Positions 6,485 to 59,829 of a DNA stretch of 64,000 nucleotides are shown here, piece after piece. Within the stretch, counting starts at the first letter, position 1. Every line of letters starts with the position of its first letter. The position numbers and the translations under genes are program-made. Location: contig NZ_JAKZMM010000007.1 of NCBI RefSeq assembly GCF_022809355.1, positions 62,001 through 126,000 on the forward strand, in the 5' to 3' direction. The stretch comes from Parabacteroides faecalis (GTDB lineage Bacteria > Bacteroidota > Bacteroidia > Bacteroidales > Tannerellaceae). The notes under the pieces are model-generated. The model was not told where the DNA came from. It did no database searches and saw only the letters and a list, made by a program, of their open reading frames with translations.

Positions 6485-6497
6485 ACCGATTTATATG

Positions 6498-7124
6498 TTA
6501 CCAGTAGCGTTCATCCGCCGAGCCGTAGAGAGCCAGCACCCGGTCGGTGTCGTTCTTCTTCTTCGCCCGCAGGTAGGACACGGATATGTTCTTTCGGGTG
6601 TAGTAGTTCACGAGGTTGCGGTAGTTGAGCAGGCTTTTATAGGCGTTGTTGATTACCGCCAGCCTTTCGGCATCCGTCAGCGACATGCCCGTCACGTTCA
6701 CTACATTCTTCAAGTCCTGCAACACGTCCGCACTTTCGGAGAGCAGCTTGGCGTACCCGGCTGAAATGGCGGTGAGTTCATCCGGCGTGTAGTTCGGGTC
6801 TGCCAGCATGTTCTGATAGTTTCGCACGTAGATTTCGGATATTTCCGCCACCAGCTCAATGGACTTCTTCACCTTGATGCCGCCCTTGACAACATCGTGT
6901 ACCGCTTTGAGCGCATCGTAATATTTTTTACCCTGCTGGAAAATCTTCTGCGCTTCCATGAAGCCGTCCAGCGTGTTCTTGGCAGTGGTGGAAGTCTGCA
7001 CTATCTGCTTGGTGGTGTTGATGATGCCCTGCGCCAAGTTGCCGGGGTCTGACACCACCCACTGTGCGGATGCCTTGCCGATGAAGCAAAGGCACACCGC
7101 CATAAGGAGAATTGTTCTTTTCAT
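6498..7124 (-). CDS. traI: Conjugative transposon protein TraI (DUF4141)
   Basis: A 208-residue secreted protein with a signal peptide ending at GKASAQ, then a largely helical periplasmic domain. The start region after cleavage (WVVSDPGNLAQGI) is the hallmark of the DUF4141/TraI family. Its start codon shares one base with the stop of the upstream lipoprotein gene, so the two are translationally coupled. By position and helical make-up it may be a VirB5-like channel protein, but that is inference. Confidence 0.88.
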   Translation of the reverse strand: MKRTILLMAVCLCFIGKASAQWVVSDPGNLAQGIINTTKQIVQTSTTAKNTLDGFMEAQKIFQQGKKYYDALKAVHDVVKGGIKVKKSIELVAEISEIYVRNYQNMLADPNYTPDELTAISAGYAKLLSESADVLQDLKNVVNVTGMSLTDAERLAVINNAYKSLLNYRNLVNYYTRKNISVSYLRAKKKNDTDRVLALYGSADERYW

Positions 7125-7474
7125 TATCTTTTGTTTTCAGGGTTTGTAACTCGTTTGTATTCGCCGCCGGGCATGAGCGTTATCCGGTCGGTCTTTTTGT
7201 CATAGGTGAACTGTATGCGGAAGCCCGTTTCGATGAACAGGCAGCCGTTCCGTTCTGTTACCGGGTAAGCCGTTTCCAGTATTCTGCCCCTGACATTCGC
7301 TTTCCGGGTGACGGTGTATCTGCCGCCCGTTTCCGAGAGTGTGAAAGCCGGGTGTCCCCTGACGTGTACCCAATAGCCCTGCATCCTTTCCAGCTCCTTG
7401 CTTCCGCTGTCCTCGCAGCCCGCCAGCAGGCAGGCGGACAATAGCGTGTATATCAGATTGTCAATCCATTTCAT
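7124..7474 (-). CDS. DUF3876-type lipoprotein of the tra operon
   Basis: A 116-residue lipoprotein: hydrophobic N-terminus and lipobox LLAGC (Cys at about residue 20), then a small beta-rich domain with GYWVHV and FRIQFTYDKKTDRITL. It matches the DUF3876 proteins found between traG and traI in Bacteroidales ICEs, the place of traH in CTnDOT. It is 11 bp downstream of traG. The lipobox points to the outer membrane or periplasm. Its role in mating is unknown. Confidence 0.75.
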   Translation of the reverse strand: MKWIDNLIYTLLSACLLAGCEDSGSKELERMQGYWVHVRGHPAFTLSETGGRYTVTRKANVRGRILETAYPVTERNGCLFIETGFRIQFTYDKKTDRITLMPGGEYKRVTNPENKR

Positions 7475-7485
7475 GTTCCTAATTT

Positions 7486-13641: not shown

Positions 13642-14894
13642 GCACGGGCGGCAATATGTTCGGCACACTGGCGTACAACCAAAACAAGGTGGACAGCGGG
13701 GAAGCAAAGGTGCTTTTCTCCAACCGGATGCTGTTGAGCGAGGACGGGAATTTCTCTATCGGCGAGTGTATGCGCAGCTTTGAAATGCAGATGCCCGTCC
13801 AGCTATCCACCAAGAAGCCGATACTTCATATTTCCATAAACCCGCACCCGGAAGACGTGCTGACCGACCAGCAGCTTTCCGACATTGCCAAAGAGTATAT
13901 GCGGAAGTTGGGCTATGGCGACCAGCCCTATTTGGTGTACAAGCATACCGACATCGACCGCCACCACATCCACATCGTGGGGTTGCGGGTGGACGAGAAC
14001 GGCAAGCCGCTGAATGACAAGTTCGAGCATCGGCGCAGCAAGCAAATCACCCGTGAACTGGAAAAGAAATACGGGCTGCACCCGGCAGAGCGAAAGGAAC
14101 GTGCCGAACGCCCGGAACTTAAAAAGGTGGACTATGCCGCCGGGGACGTGAAGCACCAAATCGGCAATACCGTGAAAGCGGCTTGCTATGGCTACCGCTT
14201 CCAGTCGTTCGGGGAGTACAAGGCTTTGCTTGCCGCTTACAACGTGTGCGCCGAGGAAGTCAAGGGTGAAGTGAACGGCAAGCCCTATCAGGGCATTGTC
14301 TATTCCGCCATGAACGACAAGGGCGAAAAGGCGGGCAACCCGGTAAAGGCTTCCCGCATCGGCAAGTCGGTGGGTTATGAAGCGGTGCAGCGCAGAATGG
14401 AGAAATCGGGCGAAGCAATCAGGAACGGGAAACTGAAAGAGCGCACCCGGAAGATTGTAGCCACTGCCATGCAGACCACCCGCAGCCGCAAGGAACTGGA
14501 ACAACAGCTAAAGAAGCAGGGCATTGACGTGGTATTCCGTCAGAATGACAGCGGGCGCATCTATGGCGTTACGTTCATCGACCATGACAGCCGGGTGGTG
14601 CTGAACGGTTCACGCTTGGGCAAGGAGTATTCGGCGAACGTGTTCAACGAACGTTTTTCGGGCGAAACCGGAAAGATGCACCAGCCCGAAGTGTCAGCAC
14701 CGCAGCAAGACCAGCCCACGCATCAGGAACAACCGGGGTTCATGCCGAAATCCGACATCGTTCCGGGTGTGGCTTCCGTGTTGGGTGCGTTCGGTGGATT
14801 GCTGGGCGGCGGTGCATCAGGCGGTGACGATCCGCAGGACACCGCCCGCCAAAAGAGAAAGAAGAAAAAGAAGCGCACAAGGCGCATCGACTAA
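13626..14894 (+). CDS. mobB: MobB relaxase
   Basis: A 422-residue relaxase (PF03432 type) that nicks oriT and pilots the transferred strand. The three-histidine motif is visible as HTDIDRHHIH with His107, Asp109, His114 and His116, following a conserved early motif NPHPED. The C-terminal third is Gln/Pro-rich and ends in a strongly basic tail (KKKKKRTRR). The start at 13626 (MVAKISTGGN) is preferred over the in-frame ATG at 13614. It lies between mobA and mobC on one transcript. Confidence 0.93.
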   Translation: MVAKISTGGNMFGTLAYNQNKVDSGEAKVLFSNRMLLSEDGNFSIGECMRSFEMQMPVQLSTKKPILHISINPHPEDVLTDQQLSDIAKEYMRKLGYGDQPYLVYKHTDIDRHHIHIVGLRVDENGKPLNDKFEHRRSKQITRELEKKYGLHPAERKERAERPELKKVDYAAGDVKHQIGNTVKAACYGYRFQSFGEYKALLAAYNVCAEEVKGEVNGKPYQGIVYSAMNDKGEKAGNPVKASRIGKSVGYEAVQRRMEKSGEAIRNGKLKERTRKIVATAMQTTRSRKELEQQLKKQGIDVVFRQNDSGRIYGVTFIDHDSRVVLNGSRLGKEYSANVFNERFSGETGKMHQPEVSAPQQDQPTHQEQPGFMPKSDIVPGVASVLGAFGGLLGGGASGGDDPQDTARQKRKKKKKRTRRID

Positions 14895-14914
14895 CTTAAA
14901 AAAACATTACAATC

Positions 14915-16924
14915 ATGCAACAGGAAGATGATTTGAGAGGGCTTGCAAGGGTCATGGACTTTATGCGGGCTGTCAGTATTCTATTCGTGGGAATAAACGT
15001 GTACTGGTTCTGTTACTCCACCCTGAAAGAGTGGGGAGTGACCTTTGAAGTGATAGACAAGATACTGTGGAACTTTCAGCGCACCACCGGGCTGTTCTCG
15101 TCCGTTCTTTGGACAAAACTATTTTCGGTGGTGTTCCTCGCCCTGTCGTGTATCGGCACTAAGGGCGTGAAAGAGGAAAAGATAACGTGGGCGAAGATAC
15201 ATTGCAGCCTTGCGGCAGGTGTCGTGTTGTTTTTTCTGAACTGGTGGCTGCTGGAACTTCCGCTGCCACACACGGCGGACACTGTGTTTTATATCGCCAC
15301 GCTGTCGGCGGGCTATATCTGTATGCTCATGGCGGGTACATGGATGTCCCGGCTGTTGAAGAACAACCTAATGGATGATGTCTTTAATACCGAGAACGAA
15401 AGTTTCCAGCAGGAAACAAGGCTTATCGAGAACGAGTATTCGGTAAATCTGCCTACCCGGTTCTACTATAAGAAGAAATGGAATAACGGTTGGATAAATG
15501 TCGTGAACCCGTTCCGTGCCAGCCTTGTGTTGGGTACGCCGGGTAGTGGCAAATCGTATGCAGTGGTGAACAGTTACATAAAACAGCAAATCGAGAAAGG
15601 TTTTGCGCTTTACTGCTATGATTATAAGTTTCCCGATTTGTCGGAAATCGCTTATAATCATTTGCTTAACCACTTGGACGGGTATAAGGTAAAGCCCAAA
15701 TTCTACATTATCAATTTTGACGACCCCCGCAAGAGCCACCGATGCAACCCGATAAACGCCAGCTTCATGTCAGACATTGCGGATGCCTACGAAGCCAGCT
15801 ACACGATAATGCTTAACCTCAATCGAAGTTGGATAAGCAAGCAGGGCGACTTCTTCGTGGAAAGCCCGATTATTCTTTTGGCGGCTATAATTTGGTATCT
15901 CCGTATCTATCAAGGCGGTAAGTATTGCACGTTCCCCCATGCCATTGAACTATTGAACAAGAAATACGCCGATGTATTCACTATTTTGCGCAGTTATCCC
16001 GAACTGGAAAACTACCTTTCGCCGTTCGTAGATGCTTGGGAATCAGACGCTCAAGAGCAGTTGCAGGGTCAAATAGCAAGTGCGAAAATCCCGCTTTCAA
16101 GGATGATTTCACCCGCTCTTTACTGGGTAATGACAGGTGATGATTTCTCGCTGGACATCAACAACCCGAAAGAGCCTAAAATCTTGGTTGTCGGCAACAA
16201 TCCCGACCGTCAGAACATCTATTCGGCGGCACTGGGATTATATAACAGTAGAATAGTGAAGCTGATAAACAAGAAAGGTCAGCTTAAAAGTTCGGTGATA
16301 ATAGATGAATTACCGACTATATATTTTCGTGGGCTTGATAATTTGATTGCGACCGCCCGAAGCAACAAGGTTGCGGTTCTGCTGGGCTTTCAGGATTACA
16401 GCCAGCTTACCCGTGACTATGGGGACAAGGAAAGCCGTGTGATACAAAATACTGTGGGCAACGTGTTTAGCGGTCAGGTAGTCGGTGAAACGGCAAAAAT
16501 ACTGTCGGAGCGTTTCGGAAAGGTGTTGCAGAAACGGCAGAGCATGACAATCAACCAGCGGGAGAAGTCCACCTCGATAAGTACCCAAATGGACAGCCTG
16601 ATACCCGCCAGCAAAATATCCAACCTCACGCAAGGTATGTTCGTGGGGGCTGTGGCGGACAATTTCGATGAACGGATAGAGCAGAAGATTTTCCACTGTG
16701 AAATCGTGGTGGACAATGAAAAGGTGAAGCGGGAAACCGCCCGTTACGTGAAGTTGCCGCAGATAATTGACTTCACCGACAAGGACGGCAACGACCGGAT
16801 GCAGGAAGAGATACAAGCCAACTATGACCGCATCCGTCAGGAAGTCCGGCAGATTGTCGAGGACGAGATAACCCGGATTAAGAACGACCCGGAGCTATGC
16901 CACTTGATTAAGGAGGAAGAATAG
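14915..16924 (+). CDS. mobC: MobC/TraG-type coupling protein (VirD4-like ATPase)
   Basis: A 669-residue type IV coupling protein. Transmembrane helices lie near residues 18-37, 65-85, 95-115 and 122-140; the Walker A motif LGTPGSGKSYA follows at about 207-217 and a Walker B strand SSVIIDELPTIYF at about 458. It brings the relaxase-DNA complex to the mating channel. The gene starts 20 bp after mobB. In Bacteroidales ICEs it is annotated as MobC or as a TraG-family coupling protein; it is distinct from the VirB4-like TraG at 7486-9999. Confidence 0.93.
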   Translation: MQQEDDLRGLARVMDFMRAVSILFVGINVYWFCYSTLKEWGVTFEVIDKILWNFQRTTGLFSSVLWTKLFSVVFLALSCIGTKGVKEEKITWAKIHCSLAAGVVLFFLNWWLLELPLPHTADTVFYIATLSAGYICMLMAGTWMSRLLKNNLMDDVFNTENESFQQETRLIENEYSVNLPTRFYYKKKWNNGWINVVNPFRASLVLGTPGSGKSYAVVNSYIKQQIEKGFALYCYDYKFPDLSEIAYNHLLNHLDGYKVKPKFYIINFDDPRKSHRCNPINASFMSDIADAYEASYTIMLNLNRSWISKQGDFFVESPIILLAAIIWYLRIYQGGKYCTFPHAIELLNKKYADVFTILRSYPELENYLSPFVDAWESDAQEQLQGQIASAKIPLSRMISPALYWVMTGDDFSLDINNPKEPKILVVGNNPDRQNIYSAALGLYNSRIVKLINKKGQLKSSVIIDELPTIYFRGLDNLIATARSNKVAVLLGFQDYSQLTRDYGDKESRVIQNTVGNVFSGQVVGETAKILSERFGKVLQKRQSMTINQREKSTSISTQMDSLIPASKISNLTQGMFVGAVADNFDERIEQKIFHCEIVVDNEKVKRETARYVKLPQIIDFTDKDGNDRMQEEIQANYDRIRQEVRQIVEDEITRIKNDPELCHLIKEEE

Positions 16925-16982: not shown

Positions 16983-17984
16983 ATTTTGCTTTTTGGTGCG
17001 GTAGGCTTCAAAACGCACTAATATTTCGTGCAGGTTCTTCAATGCTTCCACAGCCTTGCCTATCGGCGGCATCTTGCTTTTGTCGAAAGTCAGTTTCTTC
17101 AAATCGGCAGTGTACGCCGTAGCCACTTCGGGCAACGCCATGACCGCTTCGGCATCCTTGAATATCGGTGCATCAGCCAGCGACAAGTGCGAACGGGAGT
17201 TTTTATTTAGTCCGTCCTCTATCGTCACCCGGTACATGGCATCCAAGAAATCTTCCGAATGTAGGTAATCGTTATATTCCTGATTGTGGTAGAGTGCCGA
17301 CAAGTCGTAAACGTCACGGATATGCTTTGCCAACAGTGCGGCTGCATCCTCATTGTAAGACAGCTTTACCAGCCTTGAAACCTTGTCGCAGATAGTCTTT
17401 CGGGGGTTGATACACTGCGTTTCAAAACTTCCCAGCCCGTAGGTGCTTATCAGTTCCTCTTGCCCGATGCTTTCAAGAAAGGCGGTCACAATCGGTTTGA
17501 TAACCCGCTTGTCCGCCGGGTAGAACATCCGTTTTTTGTCCGGCAGGTCACAGGATTTTATCTCTACTTCCAAATGTTCTTTCAGTCCCACGCCTTGAAA
17601 TACATTGTCATACGAGAAATACAGTTTACGGTAATTACCGCCCGTTTCCGACAAATCTTCCTTGTATATGTCACTATTGAGTTCGGCTATGTATTTGGAA
17701 AGTTTCTTGTTCAATGTCTTTTCCGCCTGCTTGGACGCACCTTTGTCACCCGTGAACACGAACAAGTCCAAATCTTCCGAGAAACGTTCTATCAGCCCGT
17801 AGGCTTTGGAAAGTGAAGTTCCGCCTTTGAAGTAGGTCTTATCCGCATATTCGGACATGGAAATATCCCGCAGTATCTTCGATACCCAGTAATCCTTTTC
17901 CACGTGCGACTGCTCGTAGCCGAAATGTTCAGCCGCCAGTGCGATGATTTCCTTGAACGCTTCCTTGTCCGAATGTAAATTCAT
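16968..17984 (-). CDS. abiEii: AbiEii-family nucleotidyltransferase toxin
   Basis: A 338-residue AbiEii-type toxin. The nucleotidyltransferase motif is KGGTSLSKAYGLIERFSEDLDLF, here cited as its key parts KGGTSLSK (about 53-60) and SEDLDL (about 69-74); the two aspartates coordinate metal. Family members modify tRNA or otherwise block growth and act in phage abortive infection. It lies 9 bp after its antitoxin gene, forming a two-gene operon. The pair is cargo between mobC and the replication genes. Confidence 0.88.
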   Translation of the reverse strand: MNLHSDKEAFKEIIALAAEHFGYEQSHVEKDYWVSKILRDISMSEYADKTYFKGGTSLSKAYGLIERFSEDLDLFVFTGDKGASKQAEKTLNKKLSKYIAELNSDIYKEDLSETGGNYRKLYFSYDNVFQGVGLKEHLEVEIKSCDLPDKKRMFYPADKRVIKPIVTAFLESIGQEELISTYGLGSFETQCINPRKTICDKVSRLVKLSYNEDAAALLAKHIRDVYDLSALYHNQEYNDYLHSEDFLDAMYRVTIEDGLNKNSRSHLSLADAPIFKDAEAVMALPEVATAYTADLKKLTFDKSKMPPIGKAVEALKNLHEILVRFEAYRTKKQNEEQP

Positions 17985-28560: not shown

Positions 28561-28573
28561 TGTAAATGGTTTA

Positions 28574-28765
28574 TTATCTTATAAAAGCAAAATAAAGCAG
28601 GATAATACCCAGCGCAATTCCAAAAAAGACAAGCCCTGTCAGGAGAAAGACCCAATCCGAATAATGGAAATCAATCTCCTTGTAAGGAATGGCAGTTTTC
28701 TTCACATACTTGTTCCATGCCCATATAAGAACTCTTCCCAATCGTTCTGCTTCAATATAGCTCAT
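28574..28765 (-). CDS. Small membrane protein
   Basis: A 63-residue protein with a polar N-terminal half and one strong transmembrane helix (about 38-61, WVFLLTGLVFFGIALGIILL). No family recognised. It lies between the 170-residue membrane protein gene (30 bp) and the 183-residue gene (13 bp), with no hairpin site between them. Confidence 0.5.
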   Translation of the reverse strand: MSYIEAERLGRVLIWAWNKYVKKTAIPYKEIDFHYSDWVFLLTGLVFFGIALGIILLYFAFIR

Positions 28766-28795
28766 AATTATTTTTACTTTTCAATTAGAATTTCC

Positions 28796-29308
28796 TCATA
28801 CACTACTAAACAACAAATAAAAGGTTGCAAACTGGATAATCAGAGAAACGACATAGATACTGTAATAGAGCAAATACTTTTTCTTTTTGTCAAACTCGGC
28901 GAAATACTTCTTGTATTTGTCCCCCTTTAATAAGAATATCTCATTGACGTAATATCCGCATATCCCGATGAGTATCAAAAGCAAAATAAAGACACCGTTT
29001 CCCAAAATGCTTAATAGGCTTATCCTGAAAATCTTGATGTAAGCAAGGCAGACAAGACAACATATCCAAAGGCTGATGAAACATGGGGTGCTAAGTGCCA
29101 TAGTGCTGTAAGGAAGATAGATGCCTTTATCCATTCCGCCTTCTTCTATTTTCTTACCAGTCGAAACTAACCATTTTATGTAGCGGTTGTCCCATTTCAA
29201 GAGGCTTAGCCAATACAAAGGGTTTAGCATCCTCCAAAAAATGAAAAACAGCAGCTTATAAGTGCAGTAATAATTGATGTTGTAATATTTCTCTAATAAT
29301 TTCCTCAT
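28796..29308 (-). CDS. Three-helix membrane protein, immunity-type cassette
   Basis: A 170-residue AT-rich gene. The protein has an aromatic N-terminal stretch (YYNINYYCTYKLLFFIFW), then hydrophobic helices at about 75-95, 102-122 and 147-167, and a basic segment (GDKYKKYFAEFDKKKK) before the last helix. Two other cassette proteins (31804-32193 and 33516-33917) share this plan. Such proteins are plausible immunity factors against membrane-acting toxins; this is inference. It begins 6 bp from a hairpin site. Confidence 0.6.
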   Translation of the reverse strand: MRKLLEKYYNINYYCTYKLLFFIFWRMLNPLYWLSLLKWDNRYIKWLVSTGKKIEEGGMDKGIYLPYSTMALSTPCFISLWICCLVCLAYIKIFRISLLSILGNGVFILLLILIGICGYYVNEIFLLKGDKYKKYFAEFDKKKKYLLYYSIYVVSLIIQFATFYLLFSSV

Positions 29309-29313
29309 GCCTT

Positions 29314-29363
29314 TAATGGCTTGACAAGGAGCTGCGTTCAGCAGCTATCTTGGCTCGTTAATA
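29314..29363 (-). repeat. Cassette hairpin site 1 (attC-like, type B)
   Basis: On the plus strand the site runs from TAATGG to CGTTAATAA. Stem: CAAG, then unpaired G, then AGCTGC, loop GTTCA, GCAGCT, unpaired AT, CTTG. It sits between the 323-residue gene and the 170-residue gene. Confidence 0.85.
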
Positions 29364-29375
29364 ATAATTACAATG

Positions 29376-30347
29376 TTATTCGTATAAAAGATTCACATTT
29401 AGCAGAGGAATACTTTCTTTTAAGCACCCCTCGCTTCTATGAATTAGAAATGAAACTAATACTGTTTCAAATTCATAATCTTCAAGGATATAAGGAGTTA
29501 AGTGTGCTATTTTTCCTTTGCCATTCAATGATATTTTAGTCCATTCTTTTTGTGTAAATTCCGGCCACTTCCTTAATTCGTAGCCCGGAATTAAACTCAA
29601 CTCTCTTATGTCTTCCTTGATGTAAAAGCGACCCTCTTGCTTATACTCTCGCCCCAATAAAGGACGGATAGAATCAACATTTTCAGAACTGTAAATCGGA
29701 TAAGAATAGGGATGAATACCCCAAGTTATCATGATTATTTCTTGGCTGAACAGTTCATCGATTAGCTCTGTATTGGAAAATTCGTCTATTAAGTCCAACT
29801 TCCGATTGCCATATTTTCGAGTTATTATTTCTTCCATTTTTGCTAAGTCCACAAGAATGAAGCCGAGATAATCATAAGAATCAAAGTATTTGTCAGATAT
29901 AGAGTAAACCAAATTTTCATTTAGTTTCATTTCTGAAAAATAGAAGTAAATAGTGATAATTTCAACAGGTATTGGAAGAACATCAATAGCGGGCAAGGTG
30001 TGAACAGGCTTGTCCTTAAAAATCTTAACATCTATATTAAATTCTCCTTGTAAGCTAAAATCTATTTTATGTTCAGACAAACCACTATTCGGAGAAAGCA
30101 ATCGTATATCTGACTTGTCATTGATATAGACTTTCCCCAAATAAGTTTGATTTATTAGTTCGCCTAAAATGGAATCACTAAAGGTTAATTGGTTTTCAAC
30201 CTTTTCAAACACACATCTAACATTATATTGACCTGATATACGATTCATGACATCAGGAATCGTATAACTAATCCGGTCAATACATAGCTGTAAACTGGCA
30301 ATTAAATCGTTGCCACCTCTAAATGCTATTGTTTTTATTCTTTCCAT
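29376..30347 (-). CDS. Hypothetical cassette protein (323 aa)
   Basis: A soluble 323-residue protein with no signal peptide or membrane helix, rich in Ile, Asp and Glu. I recognise no family. The gene is AT-rich like its neighbours and is bounded by hairpin sites on both sides (29314-29363 and 30384-30430), so it forms one complete single-gene cassette. By company it may be an immunity protein. Confidence 0.65.
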   Translation of the reverse strand: MERIKTIAFRGGNDLIASLQLCIDRISYTIPDVMNRISGQYNVRCVFEKVENQLTFSDSILGELINQTYLGKVYINDKSDIRLLSPNSGLSEHKIDFSLQGEFNIDVKIFKDKPVHTLPAIDVLPIPVEIITIYFYFSEMKLNENLVYSISDKYFDSYDYLGFILVDLAKMEEIITRKYGNRKLDLIDEFSNTELIDELFSQEIIMITWGIHPYSYPIYSSENVDSIRPLLGREYKQEGRFYIKEDIRELSLIPGYELRKWPEFTQKEWTKISLNGKGKIAHLTPYILEDYEFETVLVSFLIHRSEGCLKESIPLLNVNLLYE

Positions 30348-30383
30348 CTTATGTGAATCTTTTTTTTACGAACTCATTTATTA

Positions 30384-30430
30384 TTAATGGTTAGCAGGGA
30401 ACGGCTTGTCCGTTATCCTGCGTTGTTAGC
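30384..30430 (-). repeat. Cassette hairpin site 2 (attC-like, type A)
   Basis: Plus strand from TTAATGGTTAG to GTTGTTAGC. Stem: CAGG, unpaired G, AACGG, loop CTTGT, CCGTT, unpaired AT, CCTG. The stop codon of the ankyrin gene lies 2 bp away. Confidence 0.88.
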
Positions 30431-30431
30431 A

Positions 30432-31049
30432 TTATTTTTTTTGTTTCATCCATTGCAAAAGTAAATTTTCAATCTCTTTTACACCTGTTTCCTTAGCCAA
30501 AGCAAGAGGGGTGCTGCCGTTACTATCTTTTATATCAAGGTCTGCATGATATTCTAAAAGCAACTTCACCAGTTCTATGTTATTATTGGCAATGGCTTCC
30601 ATAATCGGATATATTTTATAGGTGTCGCATGGACTTTGGTAACCATTTACGTTAATGCCATGCTCCAGCAAGATATGGGCTAACTTTACGTTAGACAATT
30701 TGCAGGCGTATGTCAGGAGCGTAAGTCCATACTCATCGCTATATACTCTATCGTTTATGTCCTTGTATCTGGTAAGGGCATATTTTAGTACATCTTCTTT
30801 GTCAAAGTAGATTGCCGTATAGAGTATATCAAACTCGTAACAATCGTTACCCATTGCCATAGGTTCATCTTTTGCTGCCAGCAACTGTTTTATGGTTTCC
30901 ACATCATTGTTGCGGCAAGCAACCCCTAACGGATAAAGCTGGTAGGTTGCATCCCGTATAGTATCTTGCAGCAATGGGCTTGCTTTCACGCTATCCAAAC
31001 TACAAAAAAGCGTTGCAAGAAAAAGTAATGTCCAATTTATTATTTTCAT
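30432..31049 (-). CDS. Secreted ankyrin-repeat protein, immunity-type cassette
   Basis: A 205-residue protein with a signal peptide (about 1-23, ending SVKAS) and four or so ankyrin repeats: GVACRNNDVETIKQLL, GLTLLTYACKLSNVKLAHILLEHG and SNGSTPLALAKETGVKEIENLL-type units, the best at about 110-135 and 175-198. The ATG at 31049 puts the signal peptide at the N-terminus; the frame extends to 31070. Secreted ankyrin proteins often serve as immunity proteins for exported enzymes acting in the periplasm. It is a single-gene cassette between two type A hairpins. Confidence 0.8.
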   Translation of the reverse strand: MKIINWTLLFLATLFCSLDSVKASPLLQDTIRDATYQLYPLGVACRNNDVETIKQLLAAKDEPMAMGNDCYEFDILYTAIYFDKEDVLKYALTRYKDINDRVYSDEYGLTLLTYACKLSNVKLAHILLEHGINVNGYQSPCDTYKIYPIMEAIANNNIELVKLLLEYHADLDIKDSNGSTPLALAKETGVKEIENLLLQWMKQKK

Positions 31050-31078
31050 ATTAACTTTTCTAAGTCGCATGTTAATGC

Positions 31079-31125
31079 TAATGGTTAGCAGGGAACGGCT
31101 TGTCCGTTATCCTGCGTTGTTATCA
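31079..31125 (-). repeat. Cassette hairpin site 3 (attC-like, type A)
   Basis: Nearly identical to site 2: TAATGGTTAGCAGGGAACGG followed by the same loop and complementary arm, ending CGTTGTTATC. It separates the Tdi1-like gene from the ankyrin gene. Confidence 0.88.
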
Positions 31126-31138
31126 ACCTGTTCTAACC

Positions 31139-31729
31139 TCAAAGTTTATCAGACCGCTTAAATCTGCCGATTGTTTGCGTGCTAATATCAATGTATGGAA
31201 GTGTCTTGACTATCTCAATATTTTCAAAGTTCTCACTTCCACCCATTGCCAATAGAGGGGAATACCCGAAACATTCATCAATGTTAGGCGTTCCGAGTTT
31301 CTCTTGTATTACAGGATAATTTTCTAAATCAAACCAACCTTTCAAGAAACTTTGATTGAAAATTATCTTATTAAGAAGTACTGTAAGATTATCAGGGAGT
31401 ATTAAATACGTTCCGTATCTGACATTCAGATAAACGATGTAGTTATTCAGTTTCGGGTTCTTTACGTAGGCAAAGACATCACCGAAAGCCGTACACATGA
31501 ACGGCAGAAACGATTTATAATACTCCATGACATAACAAGAGTTTAGCACATATTGGTAATCAGACGGATTTATGATTTTAAGCATCCCGTCACAATAACT
31601 GCCCAGCCCGACTTCTTGCCATAAAGTAGTCAGTTCGGTATAAGACAAATCGGCATATTTAGCAATAAAGGTATCATCTACTGATTGTCTGATACTATTG
31701 AGGTTCTTTTCTAAAAATTTCTCGTACAT
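31139..31729 (-). CDS. T6SS immunity protein, GAD-like/DUF1851 (Tdi1 type)
   Basis: A 196-residue protein with an N-terminal GAD-like domain (about 10-95; YTELTTLWQEVGLGSYCDGML) and a C-terminal DUF1851 domain (GTPNIDECFGYSPLLAMGG, about 148-166, then EIVKTLPYIDI). This is the architecture of Tdi1, which neutralises the type VI secretion DNase Tde1 of Agrobacterium. No toxin gene is adjacent, so it is an orphan immunity gene. It occupies a complete cassette between two type A hairpins. It is the best functional anchor for the array. Confidence 0.85.
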   Translation of the reverse strand: MYEKFLEKNLNSIRQSVDDTFIAKYADLSYTELTTLWQEVGLGSYCDGMLKIINPSDYQYVLNSCYVMEYYKSFLPFMCTAFGDVFAYVKNPKLNNYIVYLNVRYGTYLILPDNLTVLLNKIIFNQSFLKGWFDLENYPVIQEKLGTPNIDECFGYSPLLAMGGSENFENIEIVKTLPYIDISTQTIGRFKRSDKL

Positions 31730-31750
31730 ATTTGTGCGCTTTATGGTTGA

Positions 31751-31796
31751 TAATGGTTCAGCAGGGAACGGCTTGTCCGTTATCCTGCTTCGTTAA
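31751..31796 (-). repeat. Cassette hairpin site 4 (attC-like, type A)
   Basis: TAATGGTTCAGCAGGGAACG, the type A stem and loop, then CCTGCTTCGTTAA. The stop codon of the next gene is 8 bp away. The flank differs from sites 2 and 3 (GTTCAG, CTTCGTTAA) in the same way as site 8. Confidence 0.88.
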
Positions 31797-31803
31797 TGGT
31801 AAA

Positions 31804-32193
31804 TTATATTTTTCCTTGTCTGTGCAATGCCTCTATGAAAAAGCAAATAAAGGTTGCCACTATATATACAGTAAGTGCCCACACTCCAACTTTACGTTGC
31901 ACAGAGTTTTCATCCTCATACTTGGTTATAATTCTTCTGTACCTTTTCTTGAAGAAAAATCTGCCACACAGCAATGCTATTAAACTGCCTTCAATGATAT
32001 AGTATTGAGTATCGGACGGATAATCAATGATTCCGTATTGGGTTAATATACCCCATGCGGTTAATACATTTGTACTTAACATGACCGAAAACAAAAGCAT
32101 TGCCAAAAATGTGGCTCCTTCCGATACAGAAGAATGAAGCCATAATCTATAAAACCTATAATATAAATAGTCTATCATATACCTTATTACCAT
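31804..32193 (-). CDS. Three-helix membrane protein, immunity-type cassette
   Basis: A 129-residue protein: aromatic amphipathic N-terminus (DYLYYRFYRLWLHSS), helices at about 26-47 and 64-82, a basic loop (FFKKRYRRIITKYEDEN) and a third helix at about 102-122. The plan equals those at 28796-29308 and 33516-33917. Its start codon touches the next hairpin site. Function unknown; immunity to a membrane-targeting toxin is inferred from context. Confidence 0.62.
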   Translation of the reverse strand: MVIRYMIDYLYYRFYRLWLHSSVSEGATFLAMLLFSVMLSTNVLTAWGILTQYGIIDYPSDTQYYIIEGSLIALLCGRFFFKKRYRRIITKYEDENSVQRKVGVWALTVYIVATFICFFIEALHRQGKI

Positions 32194-32239
32194 TAATGGT
32201 TAGAAAGGAGCATCGTCAGATGCTATCTTTCGTTGTTAT
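32193..32239 (-). repeat. Cassette hairpin site 5 (attC-like, type C)
   Basis: TTAATGGTTAG, then stem AAAG, unpaired G, AGCATC, loop GTCA, GATGCT, unpaired AT, CTTT, ending CGTTGTTA. The stop codon of the lipoprotein gene (32236-32238) is inside the site and the start codon of the next gene abuts it. Confidence 0.85.
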
Positions 32240-32952
32240 AAACTTAATTGTTCTTGCTCACTTACATTTTCGTTTATTAGTCTGCACATATATTCTTGCA
32301 GGCAATAATTATATATTTCAGCAGTAAGTAATGATTTTATATATTCCACATTTTCATATATGTATTTCATTTTATAAGCTAATATTTCAAAGGGCATATC
32401 TTCGTTATTATATGTAGCCATTATCTGCCATAAATTTGAAATCGTTTGGCTTATGTCATTATCTTGGTACTGTTTATTGGCTTCCATATTCTGATATTTA
32501 TAGATGTAATATTCTGTGTATGCTGGTATGCGGTATGTTTCATGTGCAAAGCCAGTTCCGCCCCCGGCAATACATCTCAACATATCATTTACACAATAGA
32601 ATATTTTGTTTAATGTCTTACGTTCACAACGATAGTGTTTCCTATTATTGGCATTAAACTGTGCATACCATATACAATATAAGTCAAATCCAGTTTCTCC
32701 ATAGAAATAACCTTGCAATGAAGTATATTGTTGGCGGTATAATGTATCGGGATAAACCGCTGCCGAATTTGCAAACAATCTTTCCGCATCTTCTTCTATA
32801 TAGCGGTACTCTTTTTTACTTTGTTTACGGAATTTATCAATATTGAGTATATCATCTTGTATGTTACGTTCACACAGAGTTTTACTACAAGAGCAACCCA
32901 TTACCACGAAAATGGCAAGAACAAATAGTACTATGTTTGCAATGCGATACAT
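32236..32952 (-). CDS. Lipoprotein, immunity-type cassette
   Basis: A 238-residue lipoprotein: hydrophobic N-terminus and lipobox VMGC (Cys at about residue 20). The remainder is helical and rich in Tyr, Asn and Glu (IYKYQNMEANKQYQDND). No family recognised. A periplasmic or outer-membrane location suits immunity against effectors that act in the periplasm. Its stop codon is part of hairpin site 5 and its start lies 8 bp from site 6. Confidence 0.62.
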   Translation of the reverse strand: MYRIANIVLFVLAIFVVMGCSCSKTLCERNIQDDILNIDKFRKQSKKEYRYIEEDAERLFANSAAVYPDTLYRQQYTSLQGYFYGETGFDLYCIWYAQFNANNRKHYRCERKTLNKIFYCVNDMLRCIAGGGTGFAHETYRIPAYTEYYIYKYQNMEANKQYQDNDISQTISNLWQIMATYNNEDMPFEILAYKMKYIYENVEYIKSLLTAEIYNYCLQEYMCRLINENVSEQEQLSL

Positions 32953-32960
32953 ATTGTTTA

Positions 32961-33010
32961 TAATGGCTTGACAAGGAGCTGCGTTCAGCAGCTAACTTGG
33001 CTTGTTAGTA
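32961..33010 (-). repeat. Cassette hairpin site 6 (attC-like, type B)
   Basis: A near-copy of site 1: TAATGGCTTGACAAGGAGCT and complement, ending CTTGTTAGT. One side of the internal loop reads AA where site 1 has AT, so the change leaves the stem intact. Confidence 0.85.
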
Positions 33011-33015
33011 ATAAT

Positions 33016-33420
33016 TCATTCCTCTTTCTGTTCATCCAAACATTCATTTACCCATTCTCTAAGTCCTTCATCAATATCTTTCTGCAATGTTTCTTCTAAA
33101 ATATCTATGCCTTCTGATTTTTCGGAAGTGTCAAGAGAGTTTAAGAATCTGTTAAGCATCCATATATTATATTCAGTAGGCACTCTATGAATAGAAGCAT
33201 ATAAAAACGGAGCGTAAGTGCCATCATCAAATTTTTCCAAATAATGGACTACACGACCGGGATTGCCAAAGTTGAAATGTGGATGCCTTTCAAGCAATCT
33301 AAATAAAGGCTCAATTAAAGCATTATCCATTTCAGTTAAAACAGATTCTACCTCTTGCAAATCTTCTTCGGATTGAAGATTCATATTGTTGATTTTAGAA
33401 ATAATCTCATTTACATTCAT
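33016..33420 (-). CDS. Helical cassette protein, possibly Imm30-like
   Basis: A 134-residue acidic, all-helical soluble protein. The pattern NALIEPLFRLLERHPHFNFGNPG, here about residues 33-55, followed by RVPTEYNIWMLNRFLNS, resembles HEAT-like immunity proteins of polymorphic-toxin systems (Imm30-type). The assignment is tentative. It is a complete cassette between sites 6 and 7. Confidence 0.6.
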   Translation of the reverse strand: MNVNEIISKINNMNLQSEEDLQEVESVLTEMDNALIEPLFRLLERHPHFNFGNPGRVVHYLEKFDDGTYAPFLYASIHRVPTEYNIWMLNRFLNSLDTSEKSEGIDILEETLQKDIDEGLREWVNECLDEQKEE

Positions 33421-33448
33421 ACTTCGTTTATGTTTATCAAGTTATTAC

Positions 33449-33496
33449 TAATGGGTTGGAAAGGAACACCGTTTAGGGGTTATCTTTCCTTGTTAA
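33449..33496 (-). repeat. Cassette hairpin site 7 (attC-like, type D)
   Basis: TAATGGGTT, stem GGAAAG, unpaired G, AACACC, loop GTTTAG, GGGGTT, unpaired AT, CTTTCC, ending TTGTTAA. One A-G mismatch in the inner stem. Sequence differs widely from the other types while the fold is kept. Confidence 0.82.
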
Positions 33497-33515
33497 TATT
33501 GTTTTGTTGGGTATT

Positions 33516-33917
33516 TCAATTTGGTATATACATAAATTTTCCTTTGTAAGAAAACGCACAAATAAAGTATATTACAAAAATCACTAATGTTAGCATGATA
33601 CAAATCACATTCTTCTTTTTCTCATTCTTTTCCCGATAAATGCTTCTTCCTATCCTTGCTTTCTTTTCCGACCAAAACAAGAATCCATTAAAGCAATAAA
33701 TCATTATTATAAAAATGAAATGTGAACAAGGATGCGCAATATACTTTAGAATTGAGTATTCAAGCATCATATTTGTATAAGCTCCCAATAAGCTATATAT
33801 CATATATATGATAAAACTAAAACACACCACAGAAAATGCCTTATTCTGTTCTCTGTCTTTACCAAAGGAATCATAAATAAAGAAAATTGTGTAATACCAA
33901 TACTTATACCAACTCAT
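33516..33917 (-). CDS. Three-helix membrane protein, immunity-type cassette
   Basis: A 133-residue protein: aromatic N-terminus (SWYKYWYYTIFFIYDSFG), helices at about 26-46 and 62-82, basic loop (RSIYREKNEKKKN) and a final helix at about 104-124. It shares its plan with the products of 28796-29308 and 31804-32193 but little obvious sequence identity. It is a complete cassette between sites 7 and 8. Confidence 0.62.
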   Translation of the reverse strand: MSWYKYWYYTIFFIYDSFGKDREQNKAFSVVCFSFIIYMIYSLLGAYTNMMLEYSILKYIAHPCSHFIFIIMIYCFNGFLFWSEKKARIGRSIYREKNEKKKNVICIMLTLVIFVIYFICAFSYKGKFMYIPN

Positions 33918-33930
33918 AACAGATTTAATA

Positions 33931-33977
33931 TTAATGGTTCAGCAGGGAATGGCTTGTCCGTTATCCTGCTTCGTTAA
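33931..33977 (-). repeat. Cassette hairpin site 8 (attC-like, type A)
   Basis: TTAATGGTTCAGCAGGGAAT, type A loop and complementary arm, ending GCTTCGTTAAC. The stem has AATGG where other type A copies have AACGG, turning a C-G pair into a T-G pair. Confidence 0.88.
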
Positions 33978-34018
33978 CATCATATTTTATTTTCACATCA
34001 GTGTACCATACACCATAA

Positions 34019-34576
34019 TCACAAGATTTTATATATTTCATTTGTCTGTTGTTCAATATATTTATAGGCATATTGTTTCAATTCTGTATCTTTGGGAAAA
34101 TTCATTATTAACGTTTCTGCCTCTTGTGAAAATCCTCTTATTTTCCGTCGATATAAAGCATACAGCAATTGAAACGCCATGCGTGATGAATTCCAAAAAT
34201 CCTTTTTTTCAATGGCAATTTGTTTTAAGCTATCATCCATTTTTAGGATATAAAGCAAGTAAATAAATCCGCTTCTCCCTTTTTTGTATTTTTCGGTGTT
34301 AATAACATCTAATATAAACTTTCGGATAACGTGTGATTTTTTATTCTTCTTGTTTTTTTGTAAATGGGCATCTATGCTTAATGCAATATCTGTAATTTCA
34401 GCTTCAAACTCTATGTCATATCCTTCATAGATGTTTTCAGGCTCTTTCAAATTGTCATAAGCATAATCTACCGCTTTTTGTGTCATATCAACAACCTGCG
34501 TATCTTGATAATCAGAGCTATTGAATCTAAGTTCTTTTTTTAGACTAATATAGTCATTCCTATTTTTTATATTCAT
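34019..34576 (-). CDS. Hypothetical helical cassette protein (185 aa)
   Basis: A 185-residue soluble, Lys/Asp-rich, all-helical protein with no signal peptide. I recognise no family. The gene is very AT-rich. It lies between hairpin sites 8 and 9, with 41 bp between site 8 and its stop codon and about 70 bp between its start and site 9, more spacing than in other cassettes. An immunity role is inferred from the array only. Confidence 0.6.
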   Translation of the reverse strand: MNIKNRNDYISLKKELRFNSSDYQDTQVVDMTQKAVDYAYDNLKEPENIYEGYDIEFEAEITDIALSIDAHLQKNKKNKKSHVIRKFILDVINTEKYKKGRSGFIYLLYILKMDDSLKQIAIEKKDFWNSSRMAFQLLYALYRRKIRGFSQEAETLIMNFPKDTELKQYAYKYIEQQTNEIYKIL

Positions 34577-34647
34577 ATGCTAATAAGGGATGAAGAACAT
34601 TCTTTGTACTTAATTCTTGTTTCCATATATGGTACACCGTCTTGATG

Positions 34648-34695
34648 TTAATGGCTGGCAGCTAATCGCTGTTTAGGCGATTTAGGTGCGTGTTA
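34648..34695 (-). repeat. Cassette hairpin site 9 (attC-like, type E)
   Basis: GTTAATGGCTG at one end and GCGTGTTACTG at the other. The inner stem ATCGC/GCGAT is perfect; the outer stem is weaker and the internal loop differs from the other types. It is the site nearest the recombinase. Confidence 0.7.
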
Positions 34696-34701
34696 CTGAT
34701 A

Positions 34702-34929
34702 TTATTTGTTAGACTTAAATAATTCATAAATATATGAACAAGCATCCTCTTCATTACAAAAAACTTTTTCGCAATTCCGTCCTCCACGTTCATCAAAATA
34801 AAAAACTTCCCATTTGCTATAATTTTGATATAGGACTATTTTGTCCGACTCAATGTTCCCATTAAGCGAATATTCATTTGGATTAACACCCAGCTTGTCT
34901 AATTCTTTTTTTAATATATCTTTGTTCAT
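34702..34929 (-). CDS. Small cassette protein, immunity type
   Basis: A 75-residue protein with the stretch KWEVFYFDERGGRNCEKVF (about 39-57) and then NEEDACSYIYELF. The W-x-V-x-Y-x-E-R-G pattern plus a C-terminal helix with E-E-A-C recalls small immunity proteins encoded beside polymorphic toxins, of the Imm59 kind; I hold this loosely. It is the first cassette after the recombinase gene, its stop codon 7 bp from hairpin site 9. Confidence 0.6.
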   Translation of the reverse strand: MNKDILKKELDKLGVNPNEYSLNGNIESDKIVLYQNYSKWEVFYFDERGGRNCEKVFCNEEDACSYIYELFKSNK

Positions 34930-34951
34930 ATATATTATCAGTAATGTTATT

Positions 34952-34999
34952 TATAACCGCACCTTATGGTGTCGTTCCTACACTTCTATAACTGCACCT
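34952..34999 (-). repeat. Candidate entry site (attI-like) with 13-bp direct repeats
   Basis: TATAACCGCACCT (34952-34964) and TATAACTGCACCT (34987-34999) form a direct repeat with one difference, in the 69-bp gap between the recombinase stop and the first cassette. The first copy is part of a small hairpin (CACC/GGTG) and of a palindrome GTTATTTATAAC. There is no TAATGG...GTTA hairpin here. By position it corresponds to the attI site of integrons. Confidence 0.45.
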
Positions 35000-36105
35000 C
35001 ACGAATTATCCAGTGTATCAAGAGGATTAGGGATTTTTGCTTTATGGGCACTTGACACATGAAGATAAATGGTTGTGGTCTTGATGTCGTTGTGTCCCAG
35101 CAATTCCTGTATCGTGTGCAGGTCTGTTCCCTGTTCCAGCAAGTGTGTGGCAAAGGAGTGGCGCAGCATGTGTACGTGTACACGGTGTTTGATGCCTGCA
35201 CGATGTGCGGCTTCTTTCAGCACTTTCACCAATGCACTTGCCGAATATTGCTCTCCGGGTGTTTCGCCCTCAAACAACCATTTTTGTGGACGATATTCCC
35301 GAAAGTAGTGCCGTAGTTCTTCCAGCAACTTGGGCGAAAGGAGTGAATAACGGCATTTCTTCCCCTTGCCCATGATACGAACCGACATTGTTTCACTGTT
35401 GATGTCCTGCGGGGTCAGGTTAAGCAATTCGCTTCTTCTAAGTCCGGCAGAGTAAACCAACGAAATCATGCAGTGATGCTTGATGTTGGAAATTTGTGCA
35501 AGGATGCGCTTAATTTCATTCTTGCTCAACACTTCGGGCAGGCTCTTGTACTCTTTGGCACGGGTGATACCGCCGTAGTATTGCCGTTTGCCGCCTTTCA
35601 CCTGTTCGTAATAGAACTTGATAGCATTGATGCGCATATTCTGTTGCGACACCGAGATTTTCTTCTCGTTCACAAGATAGAGTATGTACTTGTTGATGTC
35701 CGGCACTTTCAGGCGGTCGATGTTCCGTCCCTTGTGATATTCCATGAAGTCGCTGAAATAGGCACGGTATGTTTTGACGGTCGAGGGGCTGTAACGCTTC
35801 TGTTCCAGCAGTTCGAGGTAGCCTTTCGGCAGTGTGTATTCCCTTTTAGGTTTGGGATGCCGCACGTAAACCCGGCTGTAATCAATATAGGCGTGGGGCG
35901 AATAGCGGTCGTAGAAATCCGGCAGGCTGAAAGCGGCTGATGCCATGTATGCAGAGCCGTTGCCAGCCATTTCCATACCCGTGTCTTGGGCGAGCAGTTG
36001 GGTTACAGCCTGACTGTTCGCATATTCTATCCGTATGTAGTCTGCACCGTCCCTTGTTTCTTTGTGTAGCACGATGCTTCCTCTTTGTTTCTGAACCTTA
36101 TCCAT
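34999..36105 (-). CDS. XerC/D-type tyrosine recombinase of the cassette array
   Basis: A 368-residue tyrosine recombinase. An N-terminal extension (about 1-95) is followed by a SAM-like core-binding domain (RYSPSTVKTYRAYFSDFMEY, about 110-130) and a catalytic domain with Arg in YSAGLRRSELLNL, the HMLRHSFATHLLEQG box, LLGHNDIKTT, and the tyrosine in IYLHVSSAH. The start at 36105 (MDKVQKQRGS) is chosen: a -7 box and a palindromic operator lie between it and the longer frame start at 36171. It may move cassettes, integrate the ICE, or both; adjacency to the array favours the former. Confidence 0.88.
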   Translation of the reverse strand: MDKVQKQRGSIVLHKETRDGADYIRIEYANSQAVTQLLAQDTGMEMAGNGSAYMASAAFSLPDFYDRYSPHAYIDYSRVYVRHPKPKREYTLPKGYLELLEQKRYSPSTVKTYRAYFSDFMEYHKGRNIDRLKVPDINKYILYLVNEKKISVSQQNMRINAIKFYYEQVKGGKRQYYGGITRAKEYKSLPEVLSKNEIKRILAQISNIKHHCMISLVYSAGLRRSELLNLTPQDINSETMSVRIMGKGKKCRYSLLSPKLLEELRHYFREYRPQKWLFEGETPGEQYSASALVKVLKEAAHRAGIKHRVHVHMLRHSFATHLLEQGTDLHTIQELLGHNDIKTTTIYLHVSSAHKAKIPNPLDTLDNS

Positions 36106-36129
36106 GTCGCTGAATTTTGCTTCATGCTC

Positions 36130-36173
36130 CAAAGATAAAACAAAAACGCCACATTTTGAACATACGTTCAAAA
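36130..36173 (-). promoter_or_regulatory. Recombinase promoter with 20-bp palindromic operator
   Basis: The minus strand carries TATCTTTG at 36130-36137 (-7 box). Upstream, TTTTGAAC (36154-36161) and GTTCAAAA (36166-36173) form a perfect 8-bp inverted repeat around ATAC. It covers the -33 region, so a bound repressor would block the polymerase. The TetR-family gene next to it is the obvious candidate ligand-controlled repressor. Confidence 0.7.
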
Positions 36174-36940: not shown

Positions 36941-37127
36941 CCCAAAAATATTTATTATCAGATATTTGCGAGTTTCAAAAGAATGCCGTATCTTTGAACC
37001 CGAAAGTTAGGCAGACAAACAGCGGTCAAAGTTGGACAGGCTTAACGGTTGAAAATCGTTACTGTTTCGTTACCTATTTGAAATTTTGAAAGCAAAGTAG
37101 CTGAAATATAAGCGGTTAGAGTCATAG

Positions 37128-37150
37128 GTTCAAAACCCTCTCTCTCCGCT
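37128..37150 (+). other. ICE right attachment site (3' end of a tRNA-Ser gene)
   Basis: The 23 bp from 37128 end in CCCTCTCTCTCCGCT, the T-arm 3' side, acceptor strand and discriminator of a Bacteroidales tRNA-Ser. No tRNA body precedes it: the bases to the left do not pair. The reverse complement encodes the tell-tale spurious peptide SAEREGFEP. Integration into the 3' end of a tRNA gene, which is restored by the other ICE end, explains this remnant. Confidence 0.7.
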
Positions 37151-37468
37151 GAAAGGGTGTAAATCAAGTAATTACGAGATTTATTCCCTTTTTTATTATC
37201 TACTAAAGTAGTGAAGCCAATATAATTGGCTTCGTTTTGCAACGGAAAATTCAACTTGAAATCATTAATAAATTATGTTATTGGTTATAATTTCACTTTG
37301 CTTAATATCTATCGCTTGTATGATAAAAAATAAGAAATTGAGATATACTTTATTTGTATTAGCTATTCTTATTTCTGTATTAAGTATGGTTTTATAATAT
37401 AATATTGGACTTGTAAAAAATAATGCGTGAATTTGATGATTATTTAGATAGGATAAAATACATATTCT
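37151..37468. other. Non-coding chromosomal flank of the ICE
   Basis: AT-rich, no convincing ORF. A hairpin-like repeat, AAGCCAATATAATTGGCTT (37214-37232), may be the terminator of the disrupted tRNA-Ser gene. Short open frames between 37270 and 37400 look like chance or a decayed small membrane peptide. Confidence 0.5.
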
Positions 37469-59728: not shown

Positions 59729-59829
59729 AGACTAGGAAATAAGGAAGGAATACCGTATTTTTGGTCTTGGCTGAAGAATAAATCAGATTGGAGTAAGATC
59801 TTTATTGTAGAACTTTATTATAAAATGTC

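Follow-up and report, generated by a model that had tools for sequence, protein, structure and literature searches.

Gut Bacteroidales reportedly carry recombinase-associated acquired interbacterial defence (rAID) clusters, described by Ross et al. in 2019, whose abstract is said to call their structure suggestive of active gene acquisition. In integrons, the start of a cassette complements the 5' end of its own attC site, and the RYYYAAC end and the TTRRRY start meet in the circle. In pdif/Xer-dif modules, the host XerCD acts on short dif sites of alternating orientation, and neither a folded site nor a rule of complementary tags is involved. According to passages of a 2025 preprint (PMC12247911), rAID clusters combine a predicted tyrosine recombinase with co-oriented short low-GC genes, conserved intergenic motifs and orphan immunity genes of the type VI secretion system (T6SS) in Bacteroidales, and the mechanism of their biogenesis is an area of active research. 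Sections of PMC3053210 give the integron core sites as RYYYAAC...GTTRRRY and describe integron integrases as binding the folded bottom strand. In parts of PMC9024848, IntegronFinder 2 run on complete RefSeq genomes yielded one complete integron in Bacteroidetes proper, in Salinibacter, and Bacteroidota are listed among the phyla with integrons in passages of PMC9668308. For acquired interbacterial defence (AID) arrays with orphan Tdi immunity genes, sections of PMC10470768 report two orphans that bind the toxin and protect in competition. Here we analyse an array of short genes beside a recombinase gene in Parabacteroides faecalis. The window, that is, the whole stretch of DNA that was analysed, comprises 64,000 nucleotides (contig NZ_JAKZMM010000007.1, positions 62,001 to 126,000); positions are those of the window unless the contig is named. 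We read the locus, with a probability of about three in four, as an integron-like capture platform on an integrative and conjugative element (ICE), in which the linked recombinase would move cassettes that each consist of an open reading frame (ORF) and a hairpin.

The recombinase gene is followed on the same minus strand by eleven short co-oriented ORFs of 28-38% GC, compared with 48% in the recombinase gene and 45% in the window. A hairpin of 44-47 nt stands behind each of nine of these ORFs, in every case on the recombinase strand as the preliminary description had it, and a covariance model recovers the nine sites. Each cassette starts after a CATTA with a tag of 5-6 nt, X, and the reverse complement of this tag, X', stands directly before the TAAC of the cassette's own hairpin. 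All nine window cassettes obey this tag rule (Table 1), seven with 6 of 6 bases and two with 5.

The covariance model was built from the nine window sites and applied to 38 sources (731,808 bases) at E values up to 0.5; compared loci are designated by L numbers. It found 236 sites in 33 sources, a count that includes the nine model sites and the twin arrays L038/L039; all 236 lie on the recombinase strand and none on the opposite one, and 32 of the 33 site-bearing sources hold a recombinase match. The twin L039 was kept in the counts of sites, tag intervals, cassette clusters, entry sites and ORF strand. In L025, the recombinase is preceded by three sites (5595-8679), as though the present array had an older one upstream. 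No site was found in L020, L024 and L027 (0.2-1.6 kb downstream), in the fragment L050 or in L043. The draft source genome (4.3 Mb) yielded only the window's nine sites at E 1e-4, with 15 of 429 candidates scored.

With intervals longer than 2.6 kb dropped, X and X' match over at least four leading bases in 163 of 202 cassette intervals (mean 4.59). When X was compared at the same junction with the X' of the preceding cassette, 2 of 202 matched (mean 0.34), and shuffled cassettes gave a mean of 0.49, the largest of 2000 runs reaching 0.77. Removal of repeats left 125 matches in 156 intervals and 71 distinct six-base tags. In 9 of 33 intervals that fail the rule (fewer than 4 of 5 bases), the model had overlooked a divergent hairpin that the predicted X' and X enclose (control mean 0.9, maximum 6 of 500), which indicates that the rule has predictive force. 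The longest ORF lies on the array strand in 198 of 201 intervals. Because X' and X are hundreds of bases apart in the array and become neighbours only in an excised circle, the arrangement follows the attC logic of integrons, and we hold with high confidence that the cassette logic works like that of an integron.

The hairpins covary. In an alignment of 150 sites (76 distinct) that was fitted to the model's structure, so that the counts are biased, 91.2% of cells are paired on the distinct sites, compared with 76.5% after shuffling. Changes on both sides were counted in 180 cells (52 shuffled) and the covariation score was 0.40 (0.15 shuffled); for each, none of 500 shuffles was as high. Ten stem pairs have changed in both partners, a number that 1 of 500 shuffles reached, and slid controls were 26-44% paired. 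The number of further pair types, at 21 against 21.9 in shuffles, failed to beat them (453 of 500 as high). The sites hardly vary in their ends, TAAC...CATTA, or in the asymmetric bulge that separates the two stems and in most cases opposes AT to C. When folded as DNA, the junction predicted for the circle exceeds the array junction in stability in 144 of 161 distinct cases for the bottom strand and in 138 for the top strand. In this predicted circle, the bottom strand has the more stable fold in 135 cases and the top strand in 22. The relatedness of the sites means that these cases are not independent.

These results bear on the possibility that X/X' and hairpin pairing act on RNA, in transcript protection or separation, with gene exchange being secondary. 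In its favour, the sites lie between genes on the coding strand and their RNA would fold. However, it is the bottom strand that folds better than the coding strand, G.T pairs among the 76 distinct sites point weakly in the same direction (15 for the bottom strand, 8 for the coding strand), and in a transcript the X beside a hairpin belongs to the next cassette and fails to pair with that hairpin, as the 2 matches in 202 junctions attest. We therefore consider an RNA function of this kind hardly credible.

To locate the borders of the mobile unit, cassettes were clustered at 85% identity over 80% of their length with single linkage. The 202 cassettes fell into 120 clusters, 37 of them with more than one member and one of those only in the twins L038/L039; the border analysis used 129 pairs from 36 clusters with different neighbours and left out L039. 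At the 3' border, identity drops from 0.95 at the last base of CATTA to 0.21 at the next base. The bases at offsets 5 and 6 beyond it stand out again (0.77 and 0.84), possibly as part of the enzyme's target. At the 5' border, identity is 0.84-0.93 over the first cassette bases, 0.94-0.98 over CCATTA and 0.27-0.81 further out, except for a conserved base at offset -8. The drop after CATTA indicates that the hairpin belongs to the upstream ORF and that the exchange point lies at or within CATTA, whose invariant bases mask the exact bond of exchange. Cassette borders in relatives thus coincide with the hairpin ends, in agreement with the preliminary description.

The position of the border also speaks against a view in which the hairpins are terminators or other repeats and homologous recombination between 47 nt repeats reshuffles the arrays, the recombinase being a bystander. 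Many of the aligned sites are identical or nearly so, and such repeats can recombine. Yet homologous exchange would scatter breakpoints through the repeat, whereas they are seen at its last base, with the hairpin going with the upstream ORF, and it would leave unexplained why tags match within but not between cassettes and why stems that diverge in sequence still covary. A terminator function is further opposed by the lack of a T-run after the window's hairpins. We regard this explanation as highly improbable.

Cassettes occur in different orders in different arrays. When first cassettes were included and intervals longer than 2.7 kb dropped, 232 cassettes fell into 131 clusters, 45 with more than one member. 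Eighteen complete arrays, with L039 left out, form 153 pairs, of which 32 share any cassette; these contain 6 conserved adjacencies against 47 shared cassettes, so that gene order is not fixed among relatives, as had been proposed. A shared distal run was seen in two of the 153 pairs (5 and 2 cassettes) and a shared proximal run in none. Near-identical cassettes stand in distant platforms: in a comparison without L039, L047 and L049, 40 of the 136 cassette pairs combine a cassette identity of at least 97% with a recombinase-gene identity of at most 88%, and four pairs are 100% identical behind recombinase genes of 76-79% identity. Window cassette 6 is found at 99.5-99.8% identity in L030, L036 and L037 (Bacteroides finegoldii, B. 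bouchesdurhonensis and Phocaeicola coprocola), whose recombinase genes are 77-81% identical to that of the window. In two arrays the same cassette cluster is present twice (L036:12063-12551 and 17494-17982; L030:13388-14149 and 14624-15394). Such duplicates within an array possibly explain the presence of an immunity gene in two copies in a rAID cluster.

The recombinase stop is separated from the first cassette by a conserved stretch, which in the window reads GGTGCAGTTATAG...GGTTATAAATAACATTA (34998-34942). This candidate entry site, already suggested in the preliminary description, was recovered in 27 of 32 loci, in which an X matching the X' of the first hairpin stands at its end, in 24 after ATTA and in three after the variant CATTC. 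In relatives carrying the same ICE (L016-L019 and L051), an identity of 96-97% to the window begins at about 37150 and ends at 34942 or no more than 12 nt past it; beyond the array it returns, at 95.5-98.4%, from 28743, 28560 or 27984, and the cassettes in between are others. These shared flanks around differing cassettes imply that one backbone carries different arrays. The entry site holds a small inverted repeat, CACC-ATAA-GGTG (34960-34998), variants of which occur in many of the compared loci. Some arrays (L022:12732, L025:12734 and 14295, L030:12749) carry at their head a recurrent divergent site, TGAACAA... or GAACAA... with a CATTA or CATTC end, which adjoins an entry site ending CATTC.

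Table 1. Features of the array and its flanks in the window, listed along the recombinase strand and followed by the presumed ICE end.
Feature	Position	Strand	Content	Hairpin	Tag X/X'	Remarks
Tyrosine recombinase	34999..36171	-	390 aa from TTG			True start perhaps Met23
Candidate entry (attI-like) site	34942..34998	-	Between recombinase stop and cassette 1; ends CATTA			Exchange point at or near 34942
Cassette 1	34649..34941	-	ORF 34929-34702 (75 aa)	34695-34649	CTGATA/TATCAG	
Cassette 2	33932..34648	-	ORF 34576-34019 (185 aa)	33976-33932	ACATCA/TGATGT	
Cassette 3	33449..33931	-	Membrane-protein-like ORF 33917-33516 (133 aa)	33495-33449	ATATT/AATAT	Also in L031, L052
Cassette 4	32961..33448	-	ORF 33420-33016 (134 aa)	33007-32961	GTAATA/TATTAC	
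Cassette 5	32194..32960	-	Lipoprotein-like ORF 32952-32236 (238 aa)	32238-32194	TAAAC/GTTTA	L051 97.8% identical
Cassette 6	31751..32193	-	Small membrane-protein-like ORF 32193-31804 (129 aa)	31795-31751	ATGGTA/TACCAT	
Cassette 7	31079..31750	-	Tdi1-type T6SS immunity ORF 31729-31139 (196 aa)	31122-31079	TCAACC/GGTTGA	Also in L032, L036, L048, L051
Cassette 8	30385..31078	-	Ankyrin-repeat ORF 31070-30432 (212 aa), signal-peptide-like start	30428-30385	GCATTA/TAATGC	Also in L025, L029
Cassette 9	29314..30384	-	ORF 30347-29376 (323 aa)	29360-29314	ATAATA/TATTAT	L019 98.1% identical
Membrane-protein-like ORF	28796..29308	-	After last site	None		
63 aa ORF	28574..28765	-	Platform tail	None		
Presumed right ICE end	37127..37149	+	Partial copy of tRNA-Ser 3' end, 2 mismatches in 23			Mean of 100 shuffles 0.00

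Under the capture-platform reading, the unit would consist of tag X (5-6 nt), one short ORF, X' and TAAC-hairpin-CATTA. The linked recombinase would cut beside CATTA at two sites and free the cassette as a circle, in which X' would meet X and complete a fully paired folded site with an outer stem X'TAA/TTAX, asymmetric bulges, an inner stem and a small loop. The folded single strand, probably the bottom one, would then be recombined into the entry site behind the recombinase or into another hairpin. Whole immunity genes could in this way be added to an array, lost from it or moved within it, and one common pool could supply arrays on different elements. We have moderate confidence in the folded-strand mechanism.

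Several points weigh against this reading. Circle excision, the linked enzyme as agent and the use of one folded strand are all inferred from sequence, and the strand preference comes from related sites. Twenty-four of the 33 non-matching intervals are unexplained, decay, fusion or missed sites being the options. The entry-site test failed in 5 of 32 loci, two of which match 4 of 5 bases, two have an early-ending recombinase match and one is unexplained. L043 lacks any site, although its recombinase match spans residues 9-346 and 10 kb of downstream sequence was available. Insertion at the recombinase end is only weakly hinted at by the shared distal runs. Finally, the recombinase has no IntI-specific domain, so that hairpin recognition would need to differ from that of integrons.

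The recombinase is Xer-like, in line with the XerC/D label of the preliminary description, with a Phage_integrase domain (PF00589, 2.5e-39) and a SAM-like domain (2.1e-16) in profile searches; an N-terminal extension of about 100 aa precedes the core-binding domain. Residues R245, K269, H334, R337, H360 and Y369, the presumed catalytic residues, are invariant across 20 aligned recombinases. For this alignment 28 rows were requested and 20 retained; L028 and L045 were dropped because of stops, and L020, L022, L023, L042, L011 and L005 were dropped unexamined. Among NCBIfam models, XerA scored 215.5 bits (cut-off 220), IntI (TIGR02249) 191.6 (cut-off 265) and XerD 184.3. The additional domain specific to IntI is missing: TIGR02249 aligns over 8-179 and 239-315 with 18 residues between, a two-block match that other Xer-like genes of the genome also give. 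The top PDB sequence match, 2a3v (labelled site-specific recombinase IntI4; 128 bits), is split where IntI has its extra domain. PADLOC, run on ten window proteins, gave no match for the recombinase and weak matches only for the ankyrin protein; ORF 32193-31804 was omitted from the NCBIfam and PADLOC searches.

Given these scores, one may ask whether dif-like modules are moved here by the chromosomal XerC/XerD, with the linked recombinase being unimportant, presumably as in the pdif modules of Acinetobacter plasmids. The enzyme is indeed Xer-like. However, the sites are hairpins of about 47 nt in a single orientation (236 of 236), unlike dif, which we take to be 28 bp long and of alternating orientation, and a recombinase and a conserved entry site head the arrays, which argues against the host enzymes. 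We judge this scenario improbable.

A sister family of recombinases, 47-48% identical, heads arrays with other stems and the same tag rule (L053 and L054). The N-terminal extension is common to both families, with matches starting at residue 25-30. In a tree, the two form one clade (support 98/99) that is separate from IntI1/IntI2 (100/99); the tree leaves the placement of the recombinase relative to IntI unresolved. With a stricter site pattern, 24 of 30 intervals match in the sister arrays (11 of 16 and 13 of 14), against 1 and 1 in the same-junction control; the pattern found no site in L055, and 2 of 3 intervals match in L056. L053 and L054 share three stretches of 583-758 nt that are 97.7-98.7% identical and have different neighbours but keep their relative order, which a fourth shared stretch (82%) breaks. 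A 70 nt stretch of L053 had no match in plasmids. A more relaxed pattern, tried on L053, L054 and eight other loci, gave 75 matching intervals of 124 (shuffle mean 9.5, largest 19; junction control 4) and was rejected as too loose because 46 matches lie on the opposite strand against 135 on the array strand.

The window encodes TraG, a relaxase, a coupling protein, a topoisomerase and RteC, as well as the rteR sRNA, the only Rfam match in the window at gathering scores; this set resembles that of CTnDOT-like elements. Outside the window lie a tRNA-Ser (contig 58496-58581, about 3.4 kb away) and an integrase-like ORF of 409 aa (contig 58854-60083, about 1.9 kb away) with a weak TIGR02249 match inside. 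Together with the copy of the tRNA-Ser 3' end (Table 1), they support the earlier proposal of a tRNA-Ser-targeted conjugative element. The identity shared with 13 other loci sets in at 37149-37155. The ICE appears to lie between the tRNA-Ser and the partial copy of its 3' end; it would measure about 40.6 kb, with the recombinase and the array at its right end.

The recombinase was found at 35 loci in the contig collection. At E 1e-60 or better, it is present in at least 6 of 123 genomes of the window's family, in at least 24 of 399 genomes of the family of genome G378 and in at least 4 of 20 of the genus of G378; these counts are lower bounds because the larger searches scored just part of the candidates in each genome. 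Sites occur in at least 4 of 393 genomes of the order, the source genome included, with 15 candidates scored per genome and filters that lose weak matches. The phage collection and the viral contigs yielded no relative. Two loci (L056:9252-11090 and L108:1431-6488, the latter in a B. finegoldii element) are decayed platforms in which the first 110-164 residues of the recombinase are fused in frame to other sequence; the catalytic part is absent there, while sites and cassettes persist nearby. The plasmid homologues outside Bacteroidales that rank next (Sphingomonas, Sinorhizobium) are recombinases adjoining IS91-family transposases.

Regarding the contents of the window array, the Tdi1 and ankyrin cassettes named in the preliminary description were confirmed by PF08906 (3.8e-16; also PF08887, 2.5e-11) and Ank_2 (1.8e-23), respectively. 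Its statement that stops and starts touch the sites holds for one stop (ORF 32952-32236, overlapping by 3) and one start (ORF 32193-31804); elsewhere the gaps measure 3-42 nt for stops and 8-72 nt for starts. The similarity it saw among three membrane proteins is weak, the best pair reaching 25% identity (E 7e-4) and the third joining only at E of about 0.1. The membrane-protein-like ORF behind the last site, relatives of which sit after the last array site in L025 and L026, is possibly a decayed last cassette. In L018, L019 and L031, identity to the window resumes at 28743.

The cargo search used 120 cassette proteins: 119 of the 120 clusters contributed one each, and window ORF 1 was added as the only first cassette. 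Among the matches listed, which cover 25 of 43 families, are Tdi1 (6), SMI1/KNR4 (5), Imm-NTF2 (5), Imm5 (4), PoNi (4), Imm43 (2), Imm11 (2), Imm22 (1) and Imm68 (1), so that, among these matches, about 30 of the 120 proteins belong to a named immunity family if none is counted twice. NCBIfam matches were TaeI (6), probably the Tdi1 proteins, Bfi1 (4) and one IS91 transposase. Ankyrin and leucine-rich-repeat effector families (internalin, XopL, Ank effectors) also matched weakly, which we attribute to repeat similarity; the window ankyrin ORF is far below the cut-off for the Ank ones. No polymorphic-toxin family is among the cassette-protein matches listed. The genome gave no match to T6SS VipB or Ntox15, in a search whose Ntox15 control was positive nowhere and whose VipB control was positive only in E. 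coli. The Bacteroides -7 box TAnnTTTG occurs 0 times around 202 cassette starts, which only hints that cassettes lack promoters because no expectation was computed and the stretch is mostly conserved site. The proposal of a mobile archive of toxin resistance stands as far as borders, order and entry site are concerned; immunity is indicated by family for one window cassette (Tdi1) and for about 30 of 120 overall, and not for all cassettes. The benefit would be resistance to neighbours' toxins. Because the site model can pick out cassettes whose ORFs resemble no known immunity gene, such ORFs are candidate immunity proteins.

To our knowledge, the integron principle is known only with IntI. By recombinase and core sites, the present system is not an integron. 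We somewhat favour the view that it is a second, separately evolved kind, with a non-IntI Xer-type recombinase that has its own N-terminal domain, folded single-stranded hairpins and mobile toxin-immunity libraries, the strand perhaps being supplied by ICE conjugation, and with two recombinase families that have this design in common across gut Bacteroidales. If so, the integron principle extends to another recombinase lineage and to warfare between gut bacteria.

Compared with the described systems, the window array is very likely a rAID cluster, a placement based on the published feature list and not on a reference recombinase. A recombinase lies upstream of at least two co-oriented genes below 41% GC (11 ORFs, 28-38%), and the sites correspond to the conserved intergenic motifs. 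No cassette format, tag rule, exchange point or entry site is described in the passages of PMC12247911 concerned, and no recombination sites or cassette structure in those of PMC10470768. In the open-access literature on rAID, orphan immunity, recombinases and integrons, none of the matches listed joins rAID to integron-type cassettes; the text of Ross et al. (2019), which may draw the comparison, lies outside that search. The tag rule is the new element here and points to a way in which such clusters are built; together with the exchange point and the entry site, the tag rule gives rAID assembly a concrete, testable mechanism. With pdif/Xer-dif modules, the locus shares Xer-type recombination that moves single genes between plasmids. 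With integrons, it shares one ORF and one folded site per cassette, sites that vary in sequence and conserve structure, asymmetric unpaired bases, a bottom strand that folds better, a cassette start that pairs with the 5' end of the cassette's site and, by anatomy only, an attI-like entry site beside the recombinase. It differs from them in its core, TAAC...CATTA instead of RYYYAAC...GTTRRRY, with a very variable tag, in a recombinase that lacks the IntI-specific domain, falls in a clade separate from IntI1/IntI2 and stands upstream in the array's direction, and in a cargo rich in immunity genes.

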